DNA of 60,914 bases from Rhodospirillales bacterium (lineage in GTDB: Bacteria; Pseudomonadota; Alphaproteobacteria; Rhodospirillales; Casp-alpha2): positions 1-60,914 of the forward strand of contig JABMNT010000203.1 in assembly GCA_013203595.1 (NCBI GenBank), in the 5' to 3' direction. Every line of letters begins with the position of its first letter. Position 1 is the first letter of the stretch. The position numbers and the translations under genes are program-made. Of the stretch, positions 20,229 through 33,507 are shown one piece after another. The notes under the pieces were generated by a model. That model did no database searches. It worked only from the letters and a program-made list of their open reading frames with translations, and was not told the DNA's origin.

Positions 20229-21848
20229 TTATAGTTCGCCTATCCCCGGCGATATATTGCGGCCCCGGTTGAGCGGGAAGGTGCCGGATTTGGGCGGTGG
20301 CGGCGCTGCGCGTTGCGGACAATTGCGCCGGTCACACAGCTGGCAGGCGACGCCGACCGGCACGGCAAGCTGCGGGGCGTCGAGATTGAGCCCGTCCGAA
20401 TAGGTCATCTGTCCGGCGAAGGAAATTTCACAGCCGATACAGATCGAATAAGCGGTGCCGGGATGGCCATAGGCCAGACTCGGCTTGGTCGAGGTTCTGG
20501 CAATTGAAAAGTACTGACTGCCATCCGGCATTTGGCTGATTTGCGAACGGATGACACCCGGTGTCAAAAGCGCCTGATGCATGATCCAGCGCGGGCAGGC
20601 GCTGCCATAGCGGGGAATTCGCAAACCCGATGCACTGAACCGCTTCGAGATGTTTCCGGCCAGGTCCACGCGGATCAGATGCAGGGGAATGCCGGCGGCA
20701 CTGGGGCTTCTGAGTGTTGTCAGGCGATGGCAGATTTGCTCGAAACTTGCCGAAAACCGCTGTTGCAGCAACTCGATATTGTAGCGGCAATCGGTTGCGG
20801 CGGCCAGAAATTCCGAATAGGGCAGCAGGCAGGCGCCGGCAAAATAATTGGCCAGCGCCGCCTTGCCGCGGACCCGGGCGGCCTCTGTTGTCAGGGTTTT
20901 CGACTGCACCAGTTGCTCGAGAACCGATGTGTAGGACAACTGGCCGACCAACAGGGCCAGGTGGAAATTGATGCTGGGTCCGGGCAGCGACATGGACAGA
21001 ATAAGATGGCGCCGGGTTTCATCATAAAAAGACGCACCGCTGTCCTCGCTCACATCGCCGGCGATTTCCACACTGACACCATGCCGCTCCTGCAGAAAGG
21101 CGACCAGCCGGGCGCGGACCGAGACACTGTCCAGCCCGGCGTCCCGACGCAGATCCTGGGCGGCGTCTTCCAGTTCGGGAAAAAAATTGTTATGGGCCTG
21201 GAGAAAATCGGAAACCGCTTCCTGTGGGGTCATGTCGGCGATCGCACCGACCAGACCCTCACCGGAGACAACCTCAAGCATGGCATTGACGGTGGCGCTC
21301 AGGCTTTCACTTTCGTCGAGAACAATCTTGTGGAAATTCTGGCGCTCGTCGGGGCTCAGGTCGGCATTGTCGTGGAGGATTTCTGAAAACGAAACAATCG
21401 AGGTCAGCAGGGTGCGCAGCCGGTGGATATTGCTCGACAGCAGGGGGTCCTGCGCCAGCCGCTCGATCAGGACCTGATAGTCCTCCATGAAATTTCGATA
21501 GGCCCCGTAGGTCTTGGTCAGGGCATCACAAAGTGCCGGCGAGCTGGCAACCAGCTCGCCAATGTCACCGTCCCTGAAGTCCATGGGCTCAAACATGGGG
21601 TCCTTCAGGATTTCTGTTAACTCAGCAATTTTCTGGCCTTCATGCTGCTGCGAGAAAGCCTGCAATGAAATATTCAGTATATCGCTGATACGCAACAGCA
21701 GCGATACCGTCAAATTGCGCTGGTTATGTTCAATCAGGTTCAGATAACTGGCGGAAATGCCCAGTTTCGTCGCCAGTTCGGTCTGAGTCATGCCCCGGTC
21801 TTTGCGCAGGGTTCGCAGTTTGTTGCCGACGACTGGATTTTTTGCCAT
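20229..21848 (-). CDS. XRE-family ScfR/PrpR-type regulator with HisKA-like insert
   Basis: The 539 residues have an N-terminal XRE helix-turn-helix (MTQTELATKLGISASYLNLIE, about 20-40), a middle helical module (about 130-190), an ImmA/IrrE-like region (about 290-400; the HExxH metal motif is replaced by NFHLALLVG), and a C-terminal DUF2083-type domain with C-x2-C (ICIGCEI) and CQLCDRRNC motifs. This architecture is that of the short-chain fatty acyl regulators (RamB/PrpR/PccR-like) that sense acyl-CoAs. The middle module has IHRLRTLLTSIVSFSEIL, strongly resembling a histidine-kinase H-box helix. The gene is divergent from the Liv-type importer genes. Confidence 0.85.
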   Translation of the reverse strand: MAKNPVVGNKLRTLRKDRGMTQTELATKLGISASYLNLIEHNQRNLTVSLLLRISDILNISLQAFSQQHEGQKIAELTEILKDPMFEPMDFRDGDIGELVASSPALCDALTKTYGAYRNFMEDYQVLIERLAQDPLLSSNIHRLRTLLTSIVSFSEILHDNADLSPDERQNFHKIVLDESESLSATVNAMLEVVSGEGLVGAIADMTPQEAVSDFLQAHNNFFPELEDAAQDLRRDAGLDSVSVRARLVAFLQERHGVSVEIAGDVSEDSGASFYDETRRHLILSMSLPGPSINFHLALLVGQLSYTSVLEQLVQSKTLTTEAARVRGKAALANYFAGACLLPYSEFLAAATDCRYNIELLQQRFSASFEQICHRLTTLRSPSAAGIPLHLIRVDLAGNISKRFSASGLRIPRYGSACPRWIMHQALLTPGVIRSQISQMPDGSQYFSIARTSTKPSLAYGHPGTAYSICIGCEISFAGQMTYSDGLNLDAPQLAVPVGVACQLCDRRNCPQRAAPPPPKSGTFPLNRGRNISPGIGEL

Positions 21849-22125
21849 TTTCCAAGGGTCCGTTTCGGGTTTAAGAAATTTACAAGATTTATAAAATTAC
21901 AAAATTTATATTTTCAAATTAACATAAAAACATCATTACTTTCAATATCTTATTGCTATGTGTAGGGACTTTGTGAAATTTTGACCACCTATTCAGGCAG
22001 ATATTTTAAAATAATAATGGAAAGTCGGCTTGAACATTTGGGACGCAACGGCCTTTGGGAGATGATAAGGGCTGGTTGTGTCTTGGCAGACCGTTTCGAT
22101 GGTCACAACATTGACAGGAAAAAAC
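21849..22125. promoter_or_regulatory. AT-rich divergent region between ScfR-type regulator and Liv-type importer
   Basis: 277 bp without a gene. The 60 bp next to the regulator are very AT-rich, with repeated TTTACAA/TTTATAA/TTACAAA units at 21888-21910 roughly one helical turn apart. These could be binding sites for the adjacent regulator, though they do not match the TTTGCAAA-type motif known for RamB/PccR relatives exactly. Promoters for both directions must lie here. Confidence 0.35.
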
Positions 22126-23469
22126 ATGACCGATTTTACTAAGTTCGATCGCCGTCAAGTTCTCAAATTTGGCGCAGCGGGTGCTGCAACGTTAGGTGCC
22201 GCCCCTCTCATCTTCTCAAAAAATGCCTGGGCAGAAACCTTTCGCAACGATCCCGGCAGCAAGAAATCCGTGACCCTCGGCTTTAACGTGCCACAGACCG
22301 GTGCCTATGCGGATGAGGGTGCCGACGAGTTGCGCGCCTACAAACTAGCCGTCAAGCATCTGAACGGCGAAGGCGACGGCGGCATGCTGAACACCTTCAC
22401 GCCGTCGACGCTCAAGGGTAACGGCATTCTCGGTAAAAAAGTCGAGTTCACCACCGGTGATACGCAGACCAAATCAGATGCTGCACGGGCATCTGCCAAG
22501 CGGATGATCGAAAAAGACGGTGCGCTGATGATTACCGGTGGATCGTCCTCCGGTGTGGCTGTTGCTGTACAGGGCCTGTGCCAGGAATCCGGCATCATCT
22601 TCATGGCCGGTCTGACCCACTCCAACGACACAACGGGTAAAGACAAGCGCCGCTATGGCTTCCGTCACTTCTTCAACGCCTATATGTCCGGTGCCGCCCT
22701 CGGCCCCGTGCTCAAGAAGGAATACGGTACAGAGCGTCGCGCCTATCATCTGACCGCTGACTACACCTGGGGTTGGACGCAAGAAGAATCCATGCGTAAA
22801 TTTACCGAAGAAATGGGCTGGGAAACAGTAGCCGCCGTTAAAACACCGGTTGGTGCAGGTGACTTCTCCCAGTACATCACGCCGGTTCTGAACTCGGGCG
22901 CAGACGTTCTTATCCTCAACCATTACGGCAAGGATATGATCAACTCGCTGACCCAGGCTGTTCAGTTCGGTCTGCGTGACAAGCAAGTCAACGGCAAGAA
23001 CTTCGAAATCGTTGTTCCGCTGTTCTCGCGTCTGATGGCACAGGGTGCAGGCGATAACATCAAAGGCATTCTCGGTTCCACCAACTGGAACTGGTCGCTG
23101 CAGGATGAAGGTTCAAAAGCCTTTGTTAAATCCTTCGGTGCAGAATACGGCAACCCGCCGTCGATGGCGGCGCATACCTGCTATGTTCAGACATTGCTTT
23201 ATGCCAACGCCTGTGAACAGGCCGGCACGTTCTATCCGCCGGAAGTTATCAAGTCGCTGGAAGGCTTCAAGTTCGACGGTATGGGCAATGGTCCGACTGA
23301 ATACCGGGCTGAAGATCACCAGTGCTTCAAGGATGTTCTGGTCGTGCGCGGAAAGCAGGAGCCATCGTCCCAGTTTGACCTGCTTGAGGTTGTTGAAGTA
23401 ACACCTCGCGCTCAGGTCGAGTACGATGCCAAAATATTTGGTGGTGAACTAGGCCCCTATAAGGTCTAA
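22126..23469 (+). CDS. ABC transporter substrate-binding protein (HAAT/Liv family), Tat-exported
   Basis: The 447-residue protein begins with a twin-arginine signal (FDRRQVLKFGAAGAATLG). The mature domain is a type I periplasmic-binding fold of the amino acid/amide family: VTLGFNVPQTGAYADEGADE at the start and VQGLCQESGIIFMAGLTHSNDTT mid-protein. The ATG at 22126 follows AGGAAA. It heads the order SBP, LivH, LivM, LivG, LivF. The pocket specificity cannot be read; amino acids, urea, short amides or carboxylates are all known for the family. Codon choice is more biased than in the permeases, consistent with high expression. Confidence 0.92.
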   Translation: MTDFTKFDRRQVLKFGAAGAATLGAAPLIFSKNAWAETFRNDPGSKKSVTLGFNVPQTGAYADEGADELRAYKLAVKHLNGEGDGGMLNTFTPSTLKGNGILGKKVEFTTGDTQTKSDAARASAKRMIEKDGALMITGGSSSGVAVAVQGLCQESGIIFMAGLTHSNDTTGKDKRRYGFRHFFNAYMSGAALGPVLKKEYGTERRAYHLTADYTWGWTQEESMRKFTEEMGWETVAAVKTPVGAGDFSQYITPVLNSGADVLILNHYGKDMINSLTQAVQFGLRDKQVNGKNFEIVVPLFSRLMAQGAGDNIKGILGSTNWNWSLQDEGSKAFVKSFGAEYGNPPSMAAHTCYVQTLLYANACEQAGTFYPPEVIKSLEGFKFDGMGNGPTEYRAEDHQCFKDVLVVRGKQEPSSQFDLLEVVEVTPRAQVEYDAKIFGGELGPYKV

Positions 23470-23480
23470 TACAAACTTCA

Positions 23481-23522
23481 ATTGGGCAGATGGTCTTGAT
23501 TGGCTGTCTGCCCAATATTTTT
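23481..23522 (+). terminator. Terminator/attenuator hairpin after the SBP gene
   Basis: ATTGGGCAGA (23481-23490) pairs perfectly with TCTGCCCAAT (23507-23516) and is followed by ATTTTT (23517-23522). It lies 11 bp after the SBP stop and before the permease genes. It is probably leaky, giving more binding protein than membrane subunits. Confidence 0.85.
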
Positions 23523-23577
23523 GACCTAAAGAATGACGAATGCCCGATGAAAAACTGGGCATCATTGGTGGATCACG

Positions 23578-24594
23578 ATGGACGCAATCTTAATTCAAAT
23601 CCTCAATGGAGTTGATAAAGGGGCCGCTTATGCATTGATTGCGTTGGGCCTCACATTGGTTTTTGGAACCCTTGGCATCGTCAATTTTGCACATGGCGCC
23701 CTGTTTATGCTGGGTGCCTTCTGTTCGGTGACGTTCAACAAGCTGCTGACCCTTTCGGTCAAGGTGAAAGACGAGGGGGTGACCCTGTTTGAGGCCTTCA
23801 AGGAAGAGCCCTACCTGAAGATATGGTTCGGTGATACGGGGCTGGCCATTATCGATTATTCGGTTCCCTTATCCATCCTGATGGCGATCCCGGTGATGAT
23901 CCTGGTCGGTTATGTGATGGAACGGGGTCTGATCCAGCATTTTTACAAACGCGCCCACGCCGACCAGATTCTGGTTACCTTCGGTCTGGCTATTGTTCTG
24001 CAGGAAATTGTCAAGGCGACCTTCGGCGCCAATCCGATTCCACAACCACCTCCGGAAATTGTTGCCGGCAGCGCCAATGTGGGGCTGTGGCTGGGGCTCG
24101 GTGAGTCTGTTGTCTATCCCTGGTGGCGCCTCATCTACCTGGTGTTTTCCGGGGCCGTTATCTTTGCCGTCTTTGCCTTCCTGCAGTTTACCACCTATGG
24201 CATGGTCGTGCGGGCCGGCATGCGCGACCGTGAGACGGTTGGTCTGCTGGGCATCAATATTGAAAAACGCTTTACCATTGTGTTTGCCTTGGCCGCCGTC
24301 GTCGCCGGTGTCGCCGGTGTGATGTATACACCTATTCTGCCGCCCGATTTTCACATGGGCATGGATTTTCTGGTGTTGTCTTTTGTGGTTGTTGTGGTTG
24401 GCGGCATGGGCTCGCTGGGCGGCGCCGTGGCGGCCGGGTTCCTGTTGGGCATTGTCCAGTCCTTCGCATCAATGAACGAAGTCAAAGAAATATTCCCGGG
24501 TATCGATCAGATTATTATTTATTTGGTCGCGGTGGCTATTCTGCTGGTTCGTCCACGCGGGTTGCTGGGCCGTACCGGCGTGATGGAAGATTAA
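23578..24594 (+). CDS. livH: Liv-type ABC transporter permease (LivH-like)
   Basis: A 338-residue polytopic membrane protein. The N-terminal segment [38 protein letters not shown] is the LivH signature, and residues about 250-320 hold the [24 protein letters not shown] and [19 protein letters not shown] helices. A soluble loop of about 30 residues (50-90) is longer than in E. coli LivH. It forms the translocation pore with the LivM-like protein. It begins about 60 bp after the attenuator hairpin and one base separates it from the next gene. Confidence 0.92.
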
Positions 24595-24595
24595 A

Positions 24596-25738
24596 ATGAA
24601 AAAAATCAACGTCAACGACACCACGCTGTTTCTGTCCTTTGCCGCGGTGATCCTGCTGATGCCGATCTGGCTGTCGCCCTTTGGTGCGGCCTATCCGGAC
24701 CTGCTGCAGAAATTCGCCATTTACGGGATTTTTGCGATCGGTTTCAATATCCTGTTTGGCCTGACCGGTTACCTGTCCTTTGGCCATGCCGCGTTTCTGG
24801 GAGTCGGTTCCTACGCCGCCGTCTGGTCGTTCAAGCTGTTCACCATGAATGTCCTGCCGGCGGTCGCTTTCGGCATATTCTTTGCCGGTCTTCTGGCCCT
24901 GGCCATCGGTTTTCTCAGCCTGCGCCGGTCGGGGATTTATTTTTCGATCCTGACTCTGGCCTTTGCCCAGATGTCTTACAATCTGGCCTATTCGGTTCTG
25001 ACCCCGATCACCAACGGGGAAACCGGATTGCAGCTGACCAGCAATGATCCGCGCTGGATCGACGCCATGTATAAAACCCCGGAAGCCGGTTTGCCGTCGA
25101 CCGAACTGTTCGGCCTGACCATGAACGGATATCCGGGCTTTTACTTTTGTGCGGTTATTCTGATCATCTGTTTCTATATATCCCTGCGCATTTTCCGCTC
25201 GCCATTCGGCCTGACGCTGCGCGGCATCAAGACCAACCAGAAACGCATGAAATATACGGGTTTTAATACACGGCCCTATATGCTCGCCGCCTTTGTGATT
25301 TCCGGCATGTATGCGGGACTGGCCGGATCGCTGCTGGCGATCACCGACCCCCTGGCCGGGGCCGAGCGCATGCAGTGGACCGCTTCGGGTGAAGTTGTGC
25401 TGATGACCATTCTGGGGGGCGTTGGCACCCTGGTTGGCCCGATGCTGGGGGCTGGTCTTATCAAGTATTTTGAAAACATATTCTCGTCTTTCAACAGCGG
25501 CACTCTGCACGAAGTCTTTTCCTTTCTTCCCGATGGGCTGGAAGTGGTCGTGGTCAAGGTGACCGGTTTGTTTGTCGGCAGTGGCTGGCACCTGACCCTG
25601 GGTCTGCTGTTCATGATTGTCGTGATCTTCCTGCCGGGCGGTATTGTTGAAGGGGTGCAGAAGCTGGCCCGCTTGTTCAGGCCGAAGACCGATGATGATC
25701 CGCAGGCGCCTGCTCCCCAGAAACAGGCGGCGGAGTAA
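24596..25738 (+). CDS. livM: Liv-type ABC transporter permease (LivM-like)
   Basis: The 380 residues show about nine hydrophobic segments. [23 protein letters not shown] near residue 60 is the LivM signature, and the [19 protein letters not shown] block near 280 is typical. A cytoplasmic tail rich in Asp, Pro and Gln ends the protein. It pairs with LivH. The next gene starts 5 bp after the stop. Confidence 0.92.
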
Positions 25739-25743
25739 GGACC

Positions 25744-26511
25744 ATGACCATGAATAATCTCGTGCTTACCCTGAATGATGTTCAGAAAAGTTTTGGCGGC
25801 CTGCGGGCTCTGGCGGATGTAAACCTGCAGGTGGAAGAAGGCAAAACCCTGGCCATCATCGGCCCGAACGGAGCGGGCAAATCGACCTTGCTCAACGTTT
25901 GTGTCGGCCTTTTGAAACCGGATTCCGGAACCGTGATGTTTGATGGTCAGGAACTGACTGGCAAGCAACCCCATGAAATCGCCCAGCTGGGCGTTGCCCG
26001 GGTGTTTCAGACACCTGAAATATTCACCGACCTGTCATTGATAGATAATGTGATGCTTCCGGCACTCTCAAAGCGTGATGGGTCTTTCAAGTTTAATCCC
26101 CATCTGCATATGCGCAAACAAACGGAAGTTCGCGACGAAGCCGAACATATTCTGGCCGATGTCGGGCTGAAAGAGCAGCTGGATATGGAAGCGGGAAGTC
26201 TTTCGCGCGGCGATAAACGACGCCTGGAACTGGCCATGTGTCTGATTTTGCACCCGCGTCTGTTGTTGCTGGATGAGCCGACCGCAGGGATGTCGCGCCA
26301 CGACACCAACCAGACCATTGACTTGCTGAAGAAAATCAAACAAAGCGGCATGACCAAAGTCATTATCGAGCATGACATGCACGTGGTGTTCAGCCTCGCT
26401 GACAAAGTCAGCGTTCTGGCTCGGGGAAAAATAATTGCCGACGGTACACCGGACGAGGTCCGTGAAGACCCGCTTGTCAAAGAAGCCTATCTGGGAGGCG
26501 CACATCAATGA
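25744..26511 (+). CDS. livG: Liv-type ABC transporter ATPase (LivG-like)
   Basis: The 255 residues include Walker A GPNGAGKST, Q-loop QTPEIF, signature LSRGDKRRLELA (a variant of LSGG.Q common in this clade), Walker B LLLLDEPTAGMS and the H-loop IIEHDMHVVF. Two in-frame ATGs (25744 and 25750) follow GGAGTAAGGA; either may be used. The stop overlaps the LivF start by four bases (ATGA). Confidence 0.93.
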   Translation: MTMNNLVLTLNDVQKSFGGLRALADVNLQVEEGKTLAIIGPNGAGKSTLLNVCVGLLKPDSGTVMFDGQELTGKQPHEIAQLGVARVFQTPEIFTDLSLIDNVMLPALSKRDGSFKFNPHLHMRKQTEVRDEAEHILADVGLKEQLDMEAGSLSRGDKRRLELAMCLILHPRLLLLDEPTAGMSRHDTNQTIDLLKKIKQSGMTKVIIEHDMHVVFSLADKVSVLARGKIIADGTPDEVREDPLVKEAYLGGAHQ

Positions 26512-27230
26512 ACACGCCAGTAGTCGAACCGTTTTTCAGTGTTCGCGACATTCACGCCTACTATGGCGAATCCTACATTGTTCAGGGCATTTCCTTTGAC
26601 GTTAAGGAAGGCGAAATTCTGGCCCTGCTGGGACGCAACGGTGCCGGCAAAACGTCAACATTGCGGACCCTGGCCCGGGTTGATAATCCGGCCCTGAAAA
26701 GCGGAACGTTTTATCTGCAGGGCGAGCCCATTCACCCCATGAAGGCCTATCAGGCGTCACGTGCCGGCATCCAGCTGGTGCCGGAAGACCGCCGGATCAT
26801 TGGTGGGCTGACGGTTGAGGAGAACCTGACGCTGTCGCAGGTGGCCGAACCCATCGGCTGGGAGCTGGAGAGGATTTACGAGCACTTCCCGCGCCTGGCC
26901 GAACGGCGCAAACAGGAAGCCACCACCATGTCAGGCGGCGAACAGCAAATGCTGGCGGTGGCACGCGCACTGGCACGCGACATCAAACTTTTGTTGCTGG
27001 ACGAGCCCTACGAAGGTCTGGCTCCGGTCATTGTTCACGAGATCGAGAAAATTCTGCTGGAAGTCAAGGCAATGGGGATCACCACCATCATTGTCGAGCA
27101 AAACGCTGTTGCCGCCCTCAAACTGGCGGATACGGCACTGATTGTCGATATGGGACAGGTGGCATTCCAGGGGTCCGCGCAGGAAGTCCTGGACAACGAG
27201 GAACTACGTCACGAATACCTGGCGATTTAA
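26508..27230 (+). CDS. livF: Liv-type ABC transporter ATPase (LivF-like)
   Basis: The 240 residues include Walker A GRNGAGKTS, signature MSGGEQQMLAVARAL, Walker B LLLLDEPYEGLAP and the switch IIVEQNAVAALKLAD, all typical of LivF. DEPYEGLAP rather than DEPSLGLAP is seen in the urea/amide branch and some uncharacterised importers. It is the last gene of the operon. The region that follows is untranslated and hairpin-rich. Confidence 0.93.
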   Translation: MNTPVVEPFFSVRDIHAYYGESYIVQGISFDVKEGEILALLGRNGAGKTSTLRTLARVDNPALKSGTFYLQGEPIHPMKAYQASRAGIQLVPEDRRIIGGLTVEENLTLSQVAEPIGWELERIYEHFPRLAERRKQEATTMSGGEQQMLAVARALARDIKLLLLDEPYEGLAPVIVHEIEKILLEVKAMGITTIIVEQNAVAALKLADTALIVDMGQVAFQGSAQEVLDNEELRHEYLAI

Positions 27231-27489
27231 TCCCGGCTCGTGGAGCGAAGCAGGGATTTGTTTCGGAGGCGGGTCGTCAACCCGGGATAAATAAATGGTC
27301 TGTCAGCGATAACGATAAGATTGCCTGAGCCACCGAAGATCAGGTTTGGAAGCAGGCAACATACACGAGACTGCTGTACCCGGGTTTACCGGGGGTTGGT
27401 TAGCCAAAGGCGGTTGAAAACCGATTTATCTCGGGCCCCGTGGCCCGGTCAATCGGGGCTTGTTATTTGCACTCCAGATCAAGGGCTTC
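27231..27489 (+). other. Hairpin-dense untranslated region between livF and the chemoreceptor gene; candidate structured RNA
   Basis: 259 bp with no credible gene. On the plus strand I find successive perfect stems: GCTC/GAGC (27236-27246), CGGGT/ACCCG (27270-27284), TTGCCTG (27321-27327) with CAGGCAA (27353-27359), CCCGG/CCGGG (27379-27393), TTGG/CCAA (27396-27407), CGGTT/AACCG (27411-27423), and CCGATT (27421-27426) with AATCGG (27451-27456) enclosing CGGGCC/GGCCCG (27432-27447). AACCG and CCGATT overlap, so the last two stems could be mutually exclusive, as in a switch. I do not recognise a known riboswitch class. The first stems may belong to the liv terminator. The chemoreceptor start lies about 33 bp after the last stem. 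Confidence 0.5.
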
Positions 27490-29985
27490 ATGATGAGACC
27501 AATTCAGTTCGGTTTAAACAAAATTAAAAGCCGGTTGTATACGGCATTTGGCAGCGCAACATTGTTGACGATTGCCGCCGGCGCCGTGGCTTTGGTGGGA
27601 TTTAATGTTGTCGAGCGGCATTTCCAGTCGGTCATAGATCGCTCCATTCCAACCATGGAAACGGCGCTTGAGCTTGCAAGGGGCAGCGCCGCCCTGTCAG
27701 CAGCCGCACCCCATCTTGTCGCCGCCCAAACCACCGAAGACAGCGCACAAACAATGACAGGCCTGGAAACCAGGCTGCAGCAGATCCGCCTGCTGATCGA
27801 CAAGTTGATCCTGTCGACCCAATCAGAAGACGTGGCAACTCAGTTGAATCCGCTGGTTGAACAATTTCAGTCGAACCTGGGTGTCCTCAAGGCGGAGGTC
27901 GATAAGGGATTGAAACTCAATGCCCAACTGACAGCTGCAGCCATTCAGGCCGCCGCCACCCACGAGGCCATTCTTGCCAAAATCGCGCCTGTATTCAAAC
28001 AGGCCAGTGACGAAGTCGGCAAGGGCTCGGCGTCGCTGAGTATCGGTGGTGTTATGGCGGTAAATAATCTGATGAACAGTGATTTACCCCTGTTGACGGA
28101 ACTCATTGAATTGAAGGCTCTTGCCTACAAATCAACCGGCCATTTGGCAGTTACCAAGCAATATGAGACATTTCCGGCAACCCCGGGAGAGGATGGAAAG
28201 ACGGCATCTGAGGAGATGACGGCCAGGCTCGTCAAATTGCTGAAAAAGAACAAACTGCCGGAAATTGAAGCGGCAATTACCGCCTTTACGGACAAGGCCG
28301 ACGGCCGTCTGGTTCCATCCCTGCTGGCCCTGAAAAACCTGATGCCGGTTCTCGATGAGGCGACCAAAGCCGCGCACAAGAAGCTTGCTGATGCCATGCA
28401 GAAATTCATGATCGATAATTCGGTGCGTGGATCAACACTGGTAAATACCCAGGTGAAAACCGTTGGCACCTTGCTGACGATTGAAGCAAAGGCCAACCGG
28501 GCCGCCGGGCTGTTGGCGACAGTGGCAAATGTTGACGATTTGAATATGATCGCGCAACTGGACGAAGCCCTCCTTTTGGCGATCCGCCAGACCCTTTTTC
28601 AGACGGGCGAACTCATCGATAAAACCTTGTCCGGCGAGCTCGGAACCATTGCCGGTCAGTTCAGTGTTCTGGCCGAGGGCGATGGCGGGATTGTCAATCT
28701 GCGCCGGACCTTTCTGGAAGTCGAAAACCGGTCCGGCGAATTGCTGAAAAACACCCAGCAGGTCTCCGAGCAACTGTCTGCCGCCGTGGACGAGATCGTC
28801 GCCACGTCACGGACGGAAGTGCAGGCCGGGTCCGCAGAAATCATTGCCGCCTTTGCCCGTAGCAAGAATTTTCTGATGATTATCGTCGCCTTCAGCATTG
28901 TTACGGCTATTCTCATCGCCTGGTTATACGTTGGCCGAAACCTGGGCCGGCGCCTGGATTATTTAACCAATGCAACAAAGGCGGTCGCCGACGGGGATCT
29001 GGAAACCGAAATTAACATCTCCGGTCAGGACGAGATTGCGGAAATGGGCTCGGCGTTGATCATCTTCAAGGATGGCCTGAACAAAGCCAGACTTTCCGAT
29101 GAAAAGGCATCCGAGGACCGGGTTGTCGCCGCCCGCAACCGGAAAGTGGAAATGGACAGGATGGCCGATGACTTTGATGCCGGTGTGGGTGGTGTCGTCC
29201 GTGCCGTATCGTTAATGGCCAGCGAGCTGAATACCGCTTCCGAGACAATGACAAATGCCGCCGAGCGAACCAGTTCACAATCCGCCATTGTCACCCGGGC
29301 ATCGGACGATGCATCGAATAATGTGATGACGGTCAGTACCGCGGCAGATCAATTGGCGTCAGCCATCAATGAAATCAGCAGTCAGGTTACTCTGTCATCG
29401 GAAATTGCTGCCCAGGCGGTACAGGATGCACAGGCAACAAACACAAAGATCAGTGGCCTGGCCCATGCCGCTGAGAAAATCGGTGAAGTCGTTGAACTGA
29501 TTCAGGAAATTGCTGAAAAAACAAATCTTCTGGCCCTGAATGCAACCATCGAGGCGGCGCGGGCGGGCGACGCGGGCAAGGGGTTTGCTGTTGTCGCATC
29601 GGAAGTCAAGAACCTGGCAACCCAGACGGCAAAAGCGACCAGTCAAATCGGCGAGCAGGTGTCGGGAATTCAGGATTCCACAAGGGAGGCGGTGGCGGCA
29701 ATTCAGAATATCACAAAAGTTATTTCGCGCATGGATGAAGTCGGCACGGTAATTGCCTCGGCCATTGAGGAGCAGGGGGCCGCGACCCAGGAGATTTCCC
29801 GGAACGTCGAGCTGGCCGCCCAGGGCACGGCACAGGTAAGTGCCAATATTGGGGAAGTGACGGCGGCGGCCGATGATACGGGAACAGCAGCGCGGAAAAT
29901 TCAAACATCGTCGAATGAACTGACCCGCCAGGCGGAAGTCCTGAAAGGGGAAATGGATAAATTCCTTACCCAGATCCGTGCCTGA
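27490..29985 (+). CDS. Methyl-accepting chemotaxis protein with large periplasmic domain
   Basis: The 831 residues comprise a short cytosolic N-terminus, a first membrane helix (about 15-38), a long helical periplasmic domain (about 40-450), a second membrane helix ([21 protein letters not shown], about 458-480), a HAMP domain ([20 protein letters not shown]), and a signalling domain. The signalling hairpin tip is [28 protein letters not shown], which contacts CheA and CheW. No CheR-tethering pentapeptide is present. Starts at 27490 and 27493 both follow AAGGG. It sits downstream of the Liv-type importer and could sense the same ligand, but this is inference. No cheA or cheW is in the window. 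Confidence 0.93.
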
Positions 29986-30133: not shown

Positions 30134-30511
30134 ATGACTTATTCGGTGTTGGTGGCGGAGGATGAGCCGAACATTGTCCTGTCCCTGCAGTTTTTAATGA
30201 AACAGGCGGGTTTTAGCGTTCGCGTCGCCGAAGACGGTGACCGGGCGATCCGGGAAATTGAACAGCAATTACCGGATGCCGTTTTACTCGACATCATGTT
30301 GCCCAAGCGCGACGGTTTTTCCGTGTGCGAAGCCATAAAAGGCAACCCGGCCTGGTCCAGTATCAAAGTTATTATTCTGACGGCGAAAAGCCGGGAAATC
30401 GACAAGCAGCGTGCCCTCGGACTGGGCGCCGATGCTTATATCACCAAGCCCTTTTCAACCCGTGACCTGGTTGCCCGCGTGAGTGAACTTTTACAGCCGA
30501 ACGAGCAATAG
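30134..30511 (+). CDS. Single-domain response regulator (CheY-like receiver)
   Basis: A 125-residue stand-alone receiver with acidic pocket E9-D10, phospho-acceptor D53 in LLDIMLPKRDG, T83 in IILTAK, and K105 in ITKPFS. There is no output domain. It precedes the two-TM protein and the symporter-kinase by short gaps, so it is probably their partner or a phosphate shuttle. The gene lies 148 bp after the chemoreceptor, so a chemotaxis role is also possible. The helix-4/5 surface does not settle the partner. Confidence 0.9.
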   Translation: MTYSVLVAEDEPNIVLSLQFLMKQAGFSVRVAEDGDRAIREIEQQLPDAVLLDIMLPKRDGFSVCEAIKGNPAWSSIKVIILTAKSREIDKQRALGLGADAYITKPFSTRDLVARVSELLQPNEQ

Positions 30512-30535: not shown

Positions 30536-30790
30536 ATGCGACGTAGTGGAAGAAAAAAAGAGTGGGCCGTTGTTTTGTTTTGTGGCGCCATACTGGTTTT
30601 GCTGCCTCCCTTCATTTCCATTTATGACAAGGCTGATTTCATTTTTGGGGTGCCCCAGGCATTTATCGTTATCTACGGCATATGGGCATTTATCATCCTT
30701 GCCATTGCTCTCGGGGCCCGCCGCAGATCAATGCGAAAAACGCCGGCGGAAACGGCGCTTTCGCCGATCAGCGACAAAGGTGACAGCTGA
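30536..30790 (+). CDS. Small two-TM membrane protein preceding the symporter-kinase
   Basis: The 84 residues have a basic N-terminus (MRRSGRKKEW), a first hydrophobic helix (AVVLFCGAILVLLPPFISIY), a short loop, and a second helix (FIVIYGIWAFIILAIALGA), then a polar tail. Its length and topology resemble the small subunits encoded beside many sodium:solute symporters. The stop overlaps the ATG of the symporter-kinase by one base (TGATG), strong evidence for translational coupling. I infer an accessory subunit of the symporter domain. Confidence 0.75.
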   Translation: MRRSGRKKEWAVVLFCGAILVLLPPFISIYDKADFIFGVPQAFIVIYGIWAFIILAIALGARRRSMRKTPAETALSPISDKGDS

Positions 30791-33507
30791 TGCAGGGGGG
30801 GGTGGTCGTTGGTGTTTCCTTCGCCTATTTAGGGATCCTGTTTGCGATCGCCTATTATGGGGAGAAGCGCGCCGAACAGGGCCGCAGCCTGACCAATAAC
30901 CCGTATATTTATACCCTTTCGATCGCCGTCTACTGCACGTCGTGGACGTTTTACGGGTCTGTCGGCCGGGCCGCGAAAACTGGTCTCGATTTCCTTCCTA
31001 TCTATCTGGGACCGACCCTGGTTTTCGTTGTCTGGTCAATGGTCCTGATCAAGATAATCCGCATTTGCAAGGTCCACCGGATCACCTCGATCGCCGATTT
31101 TATCTCGTCACGTTACGGCAAGAATTTTGCCCTGGGGTCACTGGTGACGATTATCGCCGTGATCGGAACCACACCCTATATCTCCCTGCAGCTGAAATCG
31201 ATCGCGACCAGTTTCAATTTATTGATTGGTTTCCAAAATCCGGAACTGCCTATTTACGGAAATCCCTTCGGCATCGACACAACTCTTGTCGTTGCCATTG
31301 CCCTGGCGCTGTTCGCCATCCTGTTTGGCACCCGCCATATCGAATCCAGCGAACACCACGAAGGTCTTGTCGCCGCCATTGCCTTCGAGTCCCTGGTCAA
31401 GCTTTTCGCTTTTCTGGCGGTCGGTTTCTTTGTCACTTTTGGTGTGTTCAGCGGGTTTGGTGATTTGTTTTATCAGGCGCAGGCACACGGCTTGACGCAG
31501 TTGTATGTGGTCAGTGCAGATAACGATTATGGCCAGTGGATCACCATGACGCTTCTGAGTATGGCGGCAATTTTATTTCTGCCCCGGCAGTTTTACATGT
31601 CAGCCGTTGAAAACAGGGATGAGACGCACCTGCGCACGGCGGCCTGGCTGTTTCCCCTGTACCTGCTGGTCATCAATGTTTTTGTGCTGCCGATCGCCAT
31701 CAGTGGCAAGCTGGCCTTTGCCGGCACCGCCAATGATGCAGATATGTTCGTGCTGACCGTGCCCATTCATTACGGACAAAGTGAACTGGCTCTGTTCGCT
31801 TATATTGGCGGCTTGTCAGCGGCGACGTCAATGGTGATCGTCGCCTCGATTGCCCTGTCCACCATGGTCTGCAACAATCTGGTTATGCCGCTGCTGTTGC
31901 GCTGGAAACTGGTGAACCTGAGTGAAAGCGGTGATTTGTCGAGTCTGCTGCTGACTATTCGCCGGGTCAGTATTCCGATTATCCTGTTGCTTGGATACGG
32001 CTATTTCCGGATTGCCAGTGAATCCTATTCGCTGGTGACAATCGGCCTGGTTTCGTTCACCGCCGCCGCCCAGTTTGCCCCGGCGATCATTGGAGGACTG
32101 TTCTGGAGAGGCGGTTCCAGCACCGGCGCCCTGACCGGATTGTCGCTGGGCTTTCTGGTCTGGCTGTACACGTTGCTGTTGCCGTCCTTTGCTCAGTCGG
32201 GTTGGCTGCCGCTGAATTTCATCAGCGACGGACTGTTTGGTATTGCCTGGTTAAAACCCTATGCGCTGTTCGGGCTGGAGGGCTTCGACAATCTGTCCCA
32301 TGCCTTGTTCTGGAGTATGTTCGCCAATATTGGCGGCTATGTCGTGGTCTCTCTGCGTGGTGAGTTGTCACCCATTGAGCGGATCCAGGGCCGCCATTTC
32401 GTCGATGTCTATGATGATACTTTAGGGCAGAATGATTCGCGCTCCTGGCAGGGTTCGGTAACCATCGCATCCCTGCAGGAACTGGTCGGCCGGTTTGTTG
32501 GACCCGAGCGTGCCCAGAACGGTTTTTTGGCCTATGCGGCGCGGCAGAACTTTACGCTCAAGGGCGACGAAATCGCCGACAGCAATTTGCTGGCAAATGC
32601 GGAAAGCATGCTGTCAGGTGCCATCGGCTCGGCAACCGCCCGGGTGATTATCGGGTCCATGATCAAGGGTGAAAACGTCAGTATGAACGAAGTTTATCAG
32701 CTGCTTGATGAGACAACCCAGGTCATCGAATACAGCCGGATGCTGGAGGTGAAATCTGCGGAACTTGAAGAAACCTCCCTGAAACTGCAGCAGGCCAACA
32801 AACGCCTCAAGGAGTTTGATTCTCTCAAGGATGATTTTCTGTCGACCATTTCTCGCGAATTACGCACCCCATTGACATCAATCCGGGCCTTTGGAGAAAT
32901 ATTGCTGGAAGGGCAGAATACATCCGACAAGGAGCGCCAGCAGTTTTTGGGTATTATCACCAAGGAAAGCGAGCGTCTGACCCGGTTGATTGATCAGATT
33001 CTCGATCTGGCCAAAATGGAAGCCGGGCGCATGGATTGGTCCATGAGCAACGTCGATCCGACCTCGACCATCGAAGAAGCCCTGGCGGCGGTCGACGGAT
33101 TGATAAAGGAGCATAATATAAAACTGATCCTGGACCTGGATAAGTCGTTGCCTGCCGTGCGTGCCGATCATGACCAGTTGGTTCAGGTTGTCATCAATGT
33201 GGTCTCAAACGCCATTAAATTCTGTAATCATCCGGGCGGCATCATTCGCGTGTCGTCGCGCCCGGGAGACAACGGGTTACTGGTGGAAATATCGGATAAT
33301 GGGTCCGGCATACTGCCCGAGCACCGGGATTTTATTTTTGAAAAATTCCATCAATCACGGCGTGGATCCAATCAGATGCCGATTGGCACCGGCCTTGGAT
33401 TGGCGATCTGCCGCCAGATCATTTCCTTTTTTGAAGGCAATATCTGGGCCGATAACGGAGAAGACGGCGGTGCGGTTATTTCCTTCGAAGTTCCGTTCGC
33501 CCGCTAG
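30790..33507 (+). CDS. Sodium:solute symporter-histidine kinase fusion lacking the H-box histidine
   Basis: A 905-residue protein. Residues about 1-500 are a PutP/SLC5-type symporter with about 13 membrane helices (YCTSWTFYGSVGRAAKTG, SIADFISSRYGK). A linker and coiled coil lead into a HisKA helix pair at about 675-745, then a HATPase domain with N-box NVVSNAIKFC, G1 DNGSGI and G2 GTGLGLAICRQI. This is the CbrA-type plan without a PAS domain. The H-box reads ISRELRTPLTSI: residue 689 is Arg (CGC, 32854-32856) where kinases have the phosphorylated His. The ATP site looks intact. It follows a stand-alone receiver and a two-TM protein. No DNA-binding regulator is adjacent. Confidence 0.9.
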   Translation: MQGGVVVGVSFAYLGILFAIAYYGEKRAEQGRSLTNNPYIYTLSIAVYCTSWTFYGSVGRAAKTGLDFLPIYLGPTLVFVVWSMVLIKIIRICKVHRITSIADFISSRYGKNFALGSLVTIIAVIGTTPYISLQLKSIATSFNLLIGFQNPELPIYGNPFGIDTTLVVAIALALFAILFGTRHIESSEHHEGLVAAIAFESLVKLFAFLAVGFFVTFGVFSGFGDLFYQAQAHGLTQLYVVSADNDYGQWITMTLLSMAAILFLPRQFYMSAVENRDETHLRTAAWLFPLYLLVINVFVLPIAISGKLAFAGTANDADMFVLTVPIHYGQSELALFAYIGGLSAATSMVIVASIALSTMVCNNLVMPLLLRWKLVNLSESGDLSSLLLTIRRVSIPIILLLGYGYFRIASESYSLVTIGLVSFTAAAQFAPAIIGGLFWRGGSSTGALTGLSLGFLVWLYTLLLPSFAQSGWLPLNFISDGLFGIAWLKPYALFGLEGFDNLSHALFWSMFANIGGYVVVSLRGELSPIERIQGRHFVDVYDDTLGQNDSRSWQGSVTIASLQELVGRFVGPERAQNGFLAYAARQNFTLKGDEIADSNLLANAESMLSGAIGSATARVIIGSMIKGENVSMNEVYQLLDETTQVIEYSRMLEVKSAELEETSLKLQQANKRLKEFDSLKDDFLSTISRELRTPLTSIRAFGEILLEGQNTSDKERQQFLGIITKESERLTRLIDQILDLAKMEAGRMDWSMSNVDPTSTIEEALAAVDGLIKEHNIKLILDLDKSLPAVRADHDQLVQVVINVVSNAIKFCNHPGGIIRVSSRPGDNGLLVEISDNGSGILPEHRDFIFEKFHQSRRGSNQMPIGTGLGLAICRQIISFFEGNIWADNGEDGGAVISFEVPFAR

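Follow-up and report, generated by a model that had tools for sequence, protein, structure and literature searches.

Fusion of a symporter to a HisKA-type sensor kinase is exemplified by CbrA of Pseudomonas putida, which comprises SLC5, STAC, PAS, and kinase domains, carries the phospho-acceptor H766, and has CbrB as its partner; a small open reading frame (ORF), cbrX, is presumably located upstream of cbrA. One report describes cbrX as translationally coupled to cbrA and CrbS and RpuS as further SLC5-STAC hybrid kinases, which also contain PAS and REC domains and have partners of the LuxR type (PMC9100948). Another states that the CbrA-H766N mutant lost autophosphorylation and crcZ activation and kept histidine uptake, and that phosphatase activity of CbrA was not significant (PMC7096432). 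Here we describe a further symporter-kinase, encoded on a stretch of 60,914 nucleotides from a Rhodospirillales bacterium (assembly GCA_013203595.1, contig JABMNT010000203.1; the whole stretch is hereafter the window), in which Arg occupies the place of the phospho-acceptor His. The features of this gene were as follows.

30790..33507, + strand: SLC5-type symporter / HisKA-HATPase sensor kinase fusion, 905 amino acids (open frame, Pfam, and structure match)
32827..33027, + strand: HisKA (DHp) domain, residues 680-746, without a His (Pfam, 68.3 bits; HisKA match in the genome at identical coordinates)
32854..32856, + strand: codon 689, CGC (Arg), the phospho-acceptor position (sequence; comparison with homologues, below)
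33166..33501, + strand: HATPase_c domain, residues 793-904, all invariant columns kept (Pfam, 84.7 bits)

The frame runs through 905 codons with no internal stop, which bears out a preliminary description of this DNA as carrying an undamaged gene with an intact ATPase domain and with CGC where the acceptor His belongs. The H-box was read as FLSTISRELRTPLTSIRAFGEIL, and because codon 689 is CGC it stands as ISRELRTPLTSI. Both the HisKA and the HATPase_c scores were far above the Pfam cut-offs, giving the domain pair that defines the kinase part of the family, and the ATPase-domain columns include those that we take to be the N, G1, F, and G2 boxes. At the N-terminus, residues 8-475 resembled the solved chain 10ed_A, named 'histidine kinase' (E 5e-71), and the protein aligned with its relatives over its full length; on these two grounds the region is assigned to the SLC5/SSS transporters, although the lack of a Pfam SSF match at E<=1 counts against the assignment. 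No PAS or receiver domain was matched by Pfam at E<=1, in which the protein differs from CbrA (PAS) and from CrbS and RpuS (PAS and REC). The stretch between transporter and HisKA, where STAC was sought, also had no Pfam match at E<=1; it is conserved among relatives. By descent, the window protein belongs with the SLC5-histidine kinases of the CbrA/CrbS kind, but with Arg689 it lacks the phospho-acceptor His that a working kinase of the family would have.

The acceptor column was read in three collections of homologues, which may overlap in species and in which duplicates were kept. The first consisted of 61 genomes, the own genome and 60 relatives, of which 24, the own included, had a symporter-kinase match at E<=1e-60; there were 29 matches besides the window, and 28 remained once L030, a fragment without the column, was left out. 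The second came from named genomes, in which 589 relatives were confirmed; the 80 best loci were fetched and all read, leaving out the other 509. The third gave 54 match places apart from the window itself, each of which was read: 45 further class members (38 with a single hit by script tally and seven with extra chance hits read by eye) and nine longer, more distant homologues (open frames of 1181-1417 amino acids) with SHDLLQPL-like boxes, which are probably CrbS-like. The preliminary description had proposed aligning orthologues at residue 689, and the result was uniform: His was found in 28/28, 80/80, 45/45, and 9/9 of these sequences, or 162 of the 162 homologues that have the column, and Arg in none. 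Arg as a variant of the family was thereby ruled out, and the acceptor change, as far as the sequences tell, is private to this one assembly among the homologues read.

The closest homologue comes from the congener G002; it shares 88% identity with the window protein, and its acceptor codon is CAC, so that one transition is enough to give the CGC of the window. Of the three congeners, the remaining pair (G001 and G003) gave no symporter-kinase match at E<=1e-60. Within the genome itself, a search at E<=1e-60 found no His-bearing second copy that would free the window gene (14 of 76 first-look candidates scored), and divergence after duplication was rejected. Since every relative read keeps the His, the window protein appears to have had a single step knocked out recently (if the sequence is not in error) rather than to be a new kind of sensor. 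We therefore consider it probable that this is a recent missense loss of the acceptor (or a sequence error) in an otherwise ordinary family member. Among the three options offered in the preliminary description, a recent CAC to CGC change was thus the best supported. Within this reading, a real recent mutation is much the likelier case and an error of consensus or assembly the minor one.

The constraint on other positions agreed with an otherwise ordinary member. Among 170 columns invariant in the other rows (counted over those rows, with at least 20 letters), the window breaks one, residue 689, and the same residue alone is broken among the 135 columns whose conservation reaches at least 99% in a larger set. 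In the first two collections, the acceptor column was His in 108/108 sequences that have it. The breaking of invariant columns is itself ordinary, as 17 of the 29 other rows break from 1 to 11 of theirs, while none breaks the acceptor column; the oddity is which column is broken, not that one is broken. If the 18 changes on the window branch had fallen at random, the chance of striking residue 689 would be about 2%, a figure that is not a test because the residue was pointed out for being striking.

The sub-case of error, in which sequencing, consensus building, or a mixture of strains has altered the codon and the organism has CAC, is unlikely. It would fit an isolated transition at a site on which all homologues with the column agree, and the assembly is a draft of 288 contigs. 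Nevertheless, the gene bears no further sign of error, with 169 of the 170 invariant columns kept, the 74 HisKA matches of the genome all sit in stop-free frames, and a random error would seldom land on codon 689.

Rates of change in absolute terms did not support a decaying kinase. Between the window and G002, nonsynonymous divergence (dN) over the whole gene was 0.076 and synonymous divergence (dS) was 1.87, which is near saturation, with a dN/dS of 0.041; the ratio was 0.039 for residues 676-750 and 0.060 for residues 751-905. On a fixed tree of 12 sequences, with the kinase half taken without column 689, the tip lengths of the window and the congener were 0.077 and 0.100 for the kinase half, 0.051 and 0.100 for residues 1-525, and 0.007 and 0.166 for residues 526-675. 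Because its tip is the shorter of the two, the kinase half of the window is not fast in absolute terms. With no such acceleration and no other invariant column broken, decay by degeneration was not supported. The polarised window changes other than H689R fall on columns that are variable in the family.

One count weighs weakly against a very recent origin. By parsimony, residues 676-905 take 6 of the 18 changes on the window branch and 1 of the 26 on the congener branch (Fisher p = 0.013, or 0.028 without residue 689), in a count where 65 differences could not be polarised, 24 of them in the kinase half. This excess weakly suggests that constraint on the kinase half was altered earlier than a very recent change would imply, and it is a weak hint, not evidence for an old loss. 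The ratio of kinase to transporter tip lengths was 1.5 in the window and 1.0 in the congener, but 3.4 in L003 and 1.9 in L004.

A comparison can be made with DivL (PDB 4q20), which resembles the window protein in having a kinase fold and intact boxes with a non-His acceptor residue (PMC4211667). The same report describes DivL as binding DivK~P without kinase or phosphatase activity, so that binding can be a function in itself, and gives the acceptor of its alphaproteobacterial homologues as Tyr throughout, with Ala in Magnetospirillum magneticum (PMC4211667). The window protein could likewise be a selected pseudokinase, whose Arg form would sense or sequester the receiver without phosphotransfer and report the state of the transporter. 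The intact ATPase-domain columns and receiver are in keeping with this, as are the behavior of DivL, the weak relative excess of kinase-half changes, and a second protein of the same genome, which resembles DivL and carries Arg across its genus:

L200:3393-5828 (contig C51), - strand: DivL-like PAS/HisKA/HATPase protein, 811 amino acids, Arg acceptor (best solved match DivL 4q20)

The 74 HisKA matches of the genome, two of them below the Pfam cut-off, had an acceptor of His in 72 and Arg in two when read by eye, the latter being the window protein and this 811-amino-acid protein. In the DivL-like family, for which 30 of 41 matches were read, the acceptor was Arg in five (own included), Tyr in 14, His in seven, Phe in two, and Met in two, and the Arg carriers were all four genomes of the genus searched plus G007. 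The genus-wide Arg of the DivL-like protein is the look of a fixed non-His acceptor, a pattern that the window protein does not have. The non-His residue of DivL is widely common to its orthologues, and DivL has PAS, whereas the window change is single and private.

The window protein does not fit a DivL-type pseudokinase, in which orthologues share a non-His acceptor, the homologues with the column being all His. Orthology to DivL was rejected: 4q20 matched the window protein with E 1.5e-21 and ranked below a dozen other solved kinases, and the DivL-like protein of the genome is a different gene. The absence of Arg from the 162 homologues, together with that of a His-bearing second copy at E<=1e-60 among the 14 of 76 candidates scored, leaves a selected pseudokinase improbable, and we give similarly little credence to the proposal that in this lineage the transporter-fused kinase became an Arg-type pseudokinase coupling the state of the symporter to the receiver by binding alone. 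The pseudokinase option of the preliminary description thus found no support as an evolved state, with Arg in none of the homologues and no absolute acceleration of the kinase half, although the relative excess by parsimony speaks weakly for it.

Two further possibilities concern what the changed protein might still do. Some kinases retain phosphatase activity when their His is mutated, and a phosphatase-only sensor would result if Arg stopped the kinase step and dephosphorylation of the receiver could still rely on Glu at H+1 and Thr at H+4. E690 and T693 are retained, and we regard this outcome as very improbable. The remaining option of the preliminary description, that another His within the protein takes the phosphate, found no support. 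There is no His in residues 537-774, and those at 775, 794, 814, 845, and 854 all lie outside the HisKA match; an alternative acceptor in the DHp domain is therefore not supported, and we assign this possibility almost no weight.

Under the reading of a recent acceptor loss, a single-base change from CAC to CGC, judged against the nearest relative, would have replaced the acceptor His with Arg. The kinase would then no longer autophosphorylate or pass phosphate to the receiver encoded at 30134-30511, which would rely on other donors or remain unphosphorylated. The symporter half would presumably remain a working transporter, and the kinase, if folded, may continue to bind ATP as well as the receiver. 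The CbrA-H766N protein is similarly complete apart from the replaced acceptor (PMC7096432). By analogy to that mutant, the window protein is expected to carry out transport without signaling through phosphotransfer; H766N is an engineered Asn with measured effects, whereas the Arg of the window was found in a genome and its effects are predicted. A weak search of the literature on kinases that lack the acceptor His or have Arg in its place yielded no symporter kinase reported to have an Arg acceptor.

Two genes directly upstream of the kinase form a recurrent module with it.

30134..30511, + strand: stand-alone receiver, 125 amino acids, likely partner of the kinase (Pfam Response_reg, 99.1 bits)
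30536..30790, + strand: small membrane protein, 84 amino acids, its stop overlapping the kinase start (TGATG; junction sequence)

A receiver was found within 1 kb of the kinase on the same strand in 73 of 94 related loci; when the whole fetched stretch is counted, 90 of them have one. A match to the 84-amino-acid protein immediately precedes the kinase in 40 of the 94, in 30 of which the receiver was present too; the protein itself matched nothing in Pfam or NCBIfam at E<=1e-3. Aligned with 16 receivers of neighbors, the window receiver keeps the acidic, Asp, Thr, and Lys positions, which we take to be those expected of a receiver, and it has GADAY where most have GADDY. It looks intact, to judge from its sequence, and by pairwise identity it is no faster than that of the congener (77.6% and 72.0% to L032, respectively, and 75.2% each to L033). 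It is likely the partner of the symporter-kinase, which would make the candidate partner a receiver-only protein, in contrast to CbrB. The overlapping small ORF may be coupled to the kinase gene as cbrX is to cbrA (PMC9100948).

Upstream of this module, window positions 22078-29985 encode a periplasmic binding protein, ATP-binding cassette (ABC) transporter genes that we presume to be of the branched-chain type, and a chemotaxis-receptor-like protein. A livF-like match (at least 70%) lay on the strand of the kinase in 6 of the 94 loci. Further upstream, at 20229-21848 on the - strand, is a short-chain fatty acyl-CoA regulator (ScfRs, HTH_3, Peptidase_M78) with a HisKA match at residues 142-195 (30.7 bits, against a Pfam cut-off of 26.9); the DHp-like segment within this transcription factor reads NIHRLRTLLTSI. 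In 49 of the 94 loci, the fetched DNA that holds the symporter kinase also contains a DnaQ-like exonuclease motif in an open stretch of more than 650 amino acids (L087:3402-5702, L084:9150-11291, and 47 more among L031-L044 and L075-L154), a motif that the window does not have. The two named stretches were scanned by Pfam and have PAS and the exonuclease PF00929. Across the 49, the alignment column where an H-box-like His would stand was Glu in 41, Arg in four, Asn in two, Gln in one, Tyr in one, and His in none.

If the change is real, the window protein would be a natural counterpart to the laboratory acceptor-dead CbrA mutant and would allow the question of how useful a symporter-kinase is when it cannot transfer phosphate. 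Should the change be fixed in the species, the protein would be alone among the 163 sequences read in having no acceptor. Should it instead be recent or erroneous, this would be an ordinary loss-of-function allele, and annotation of the gene should avoid the term 'active histidine kinase'.
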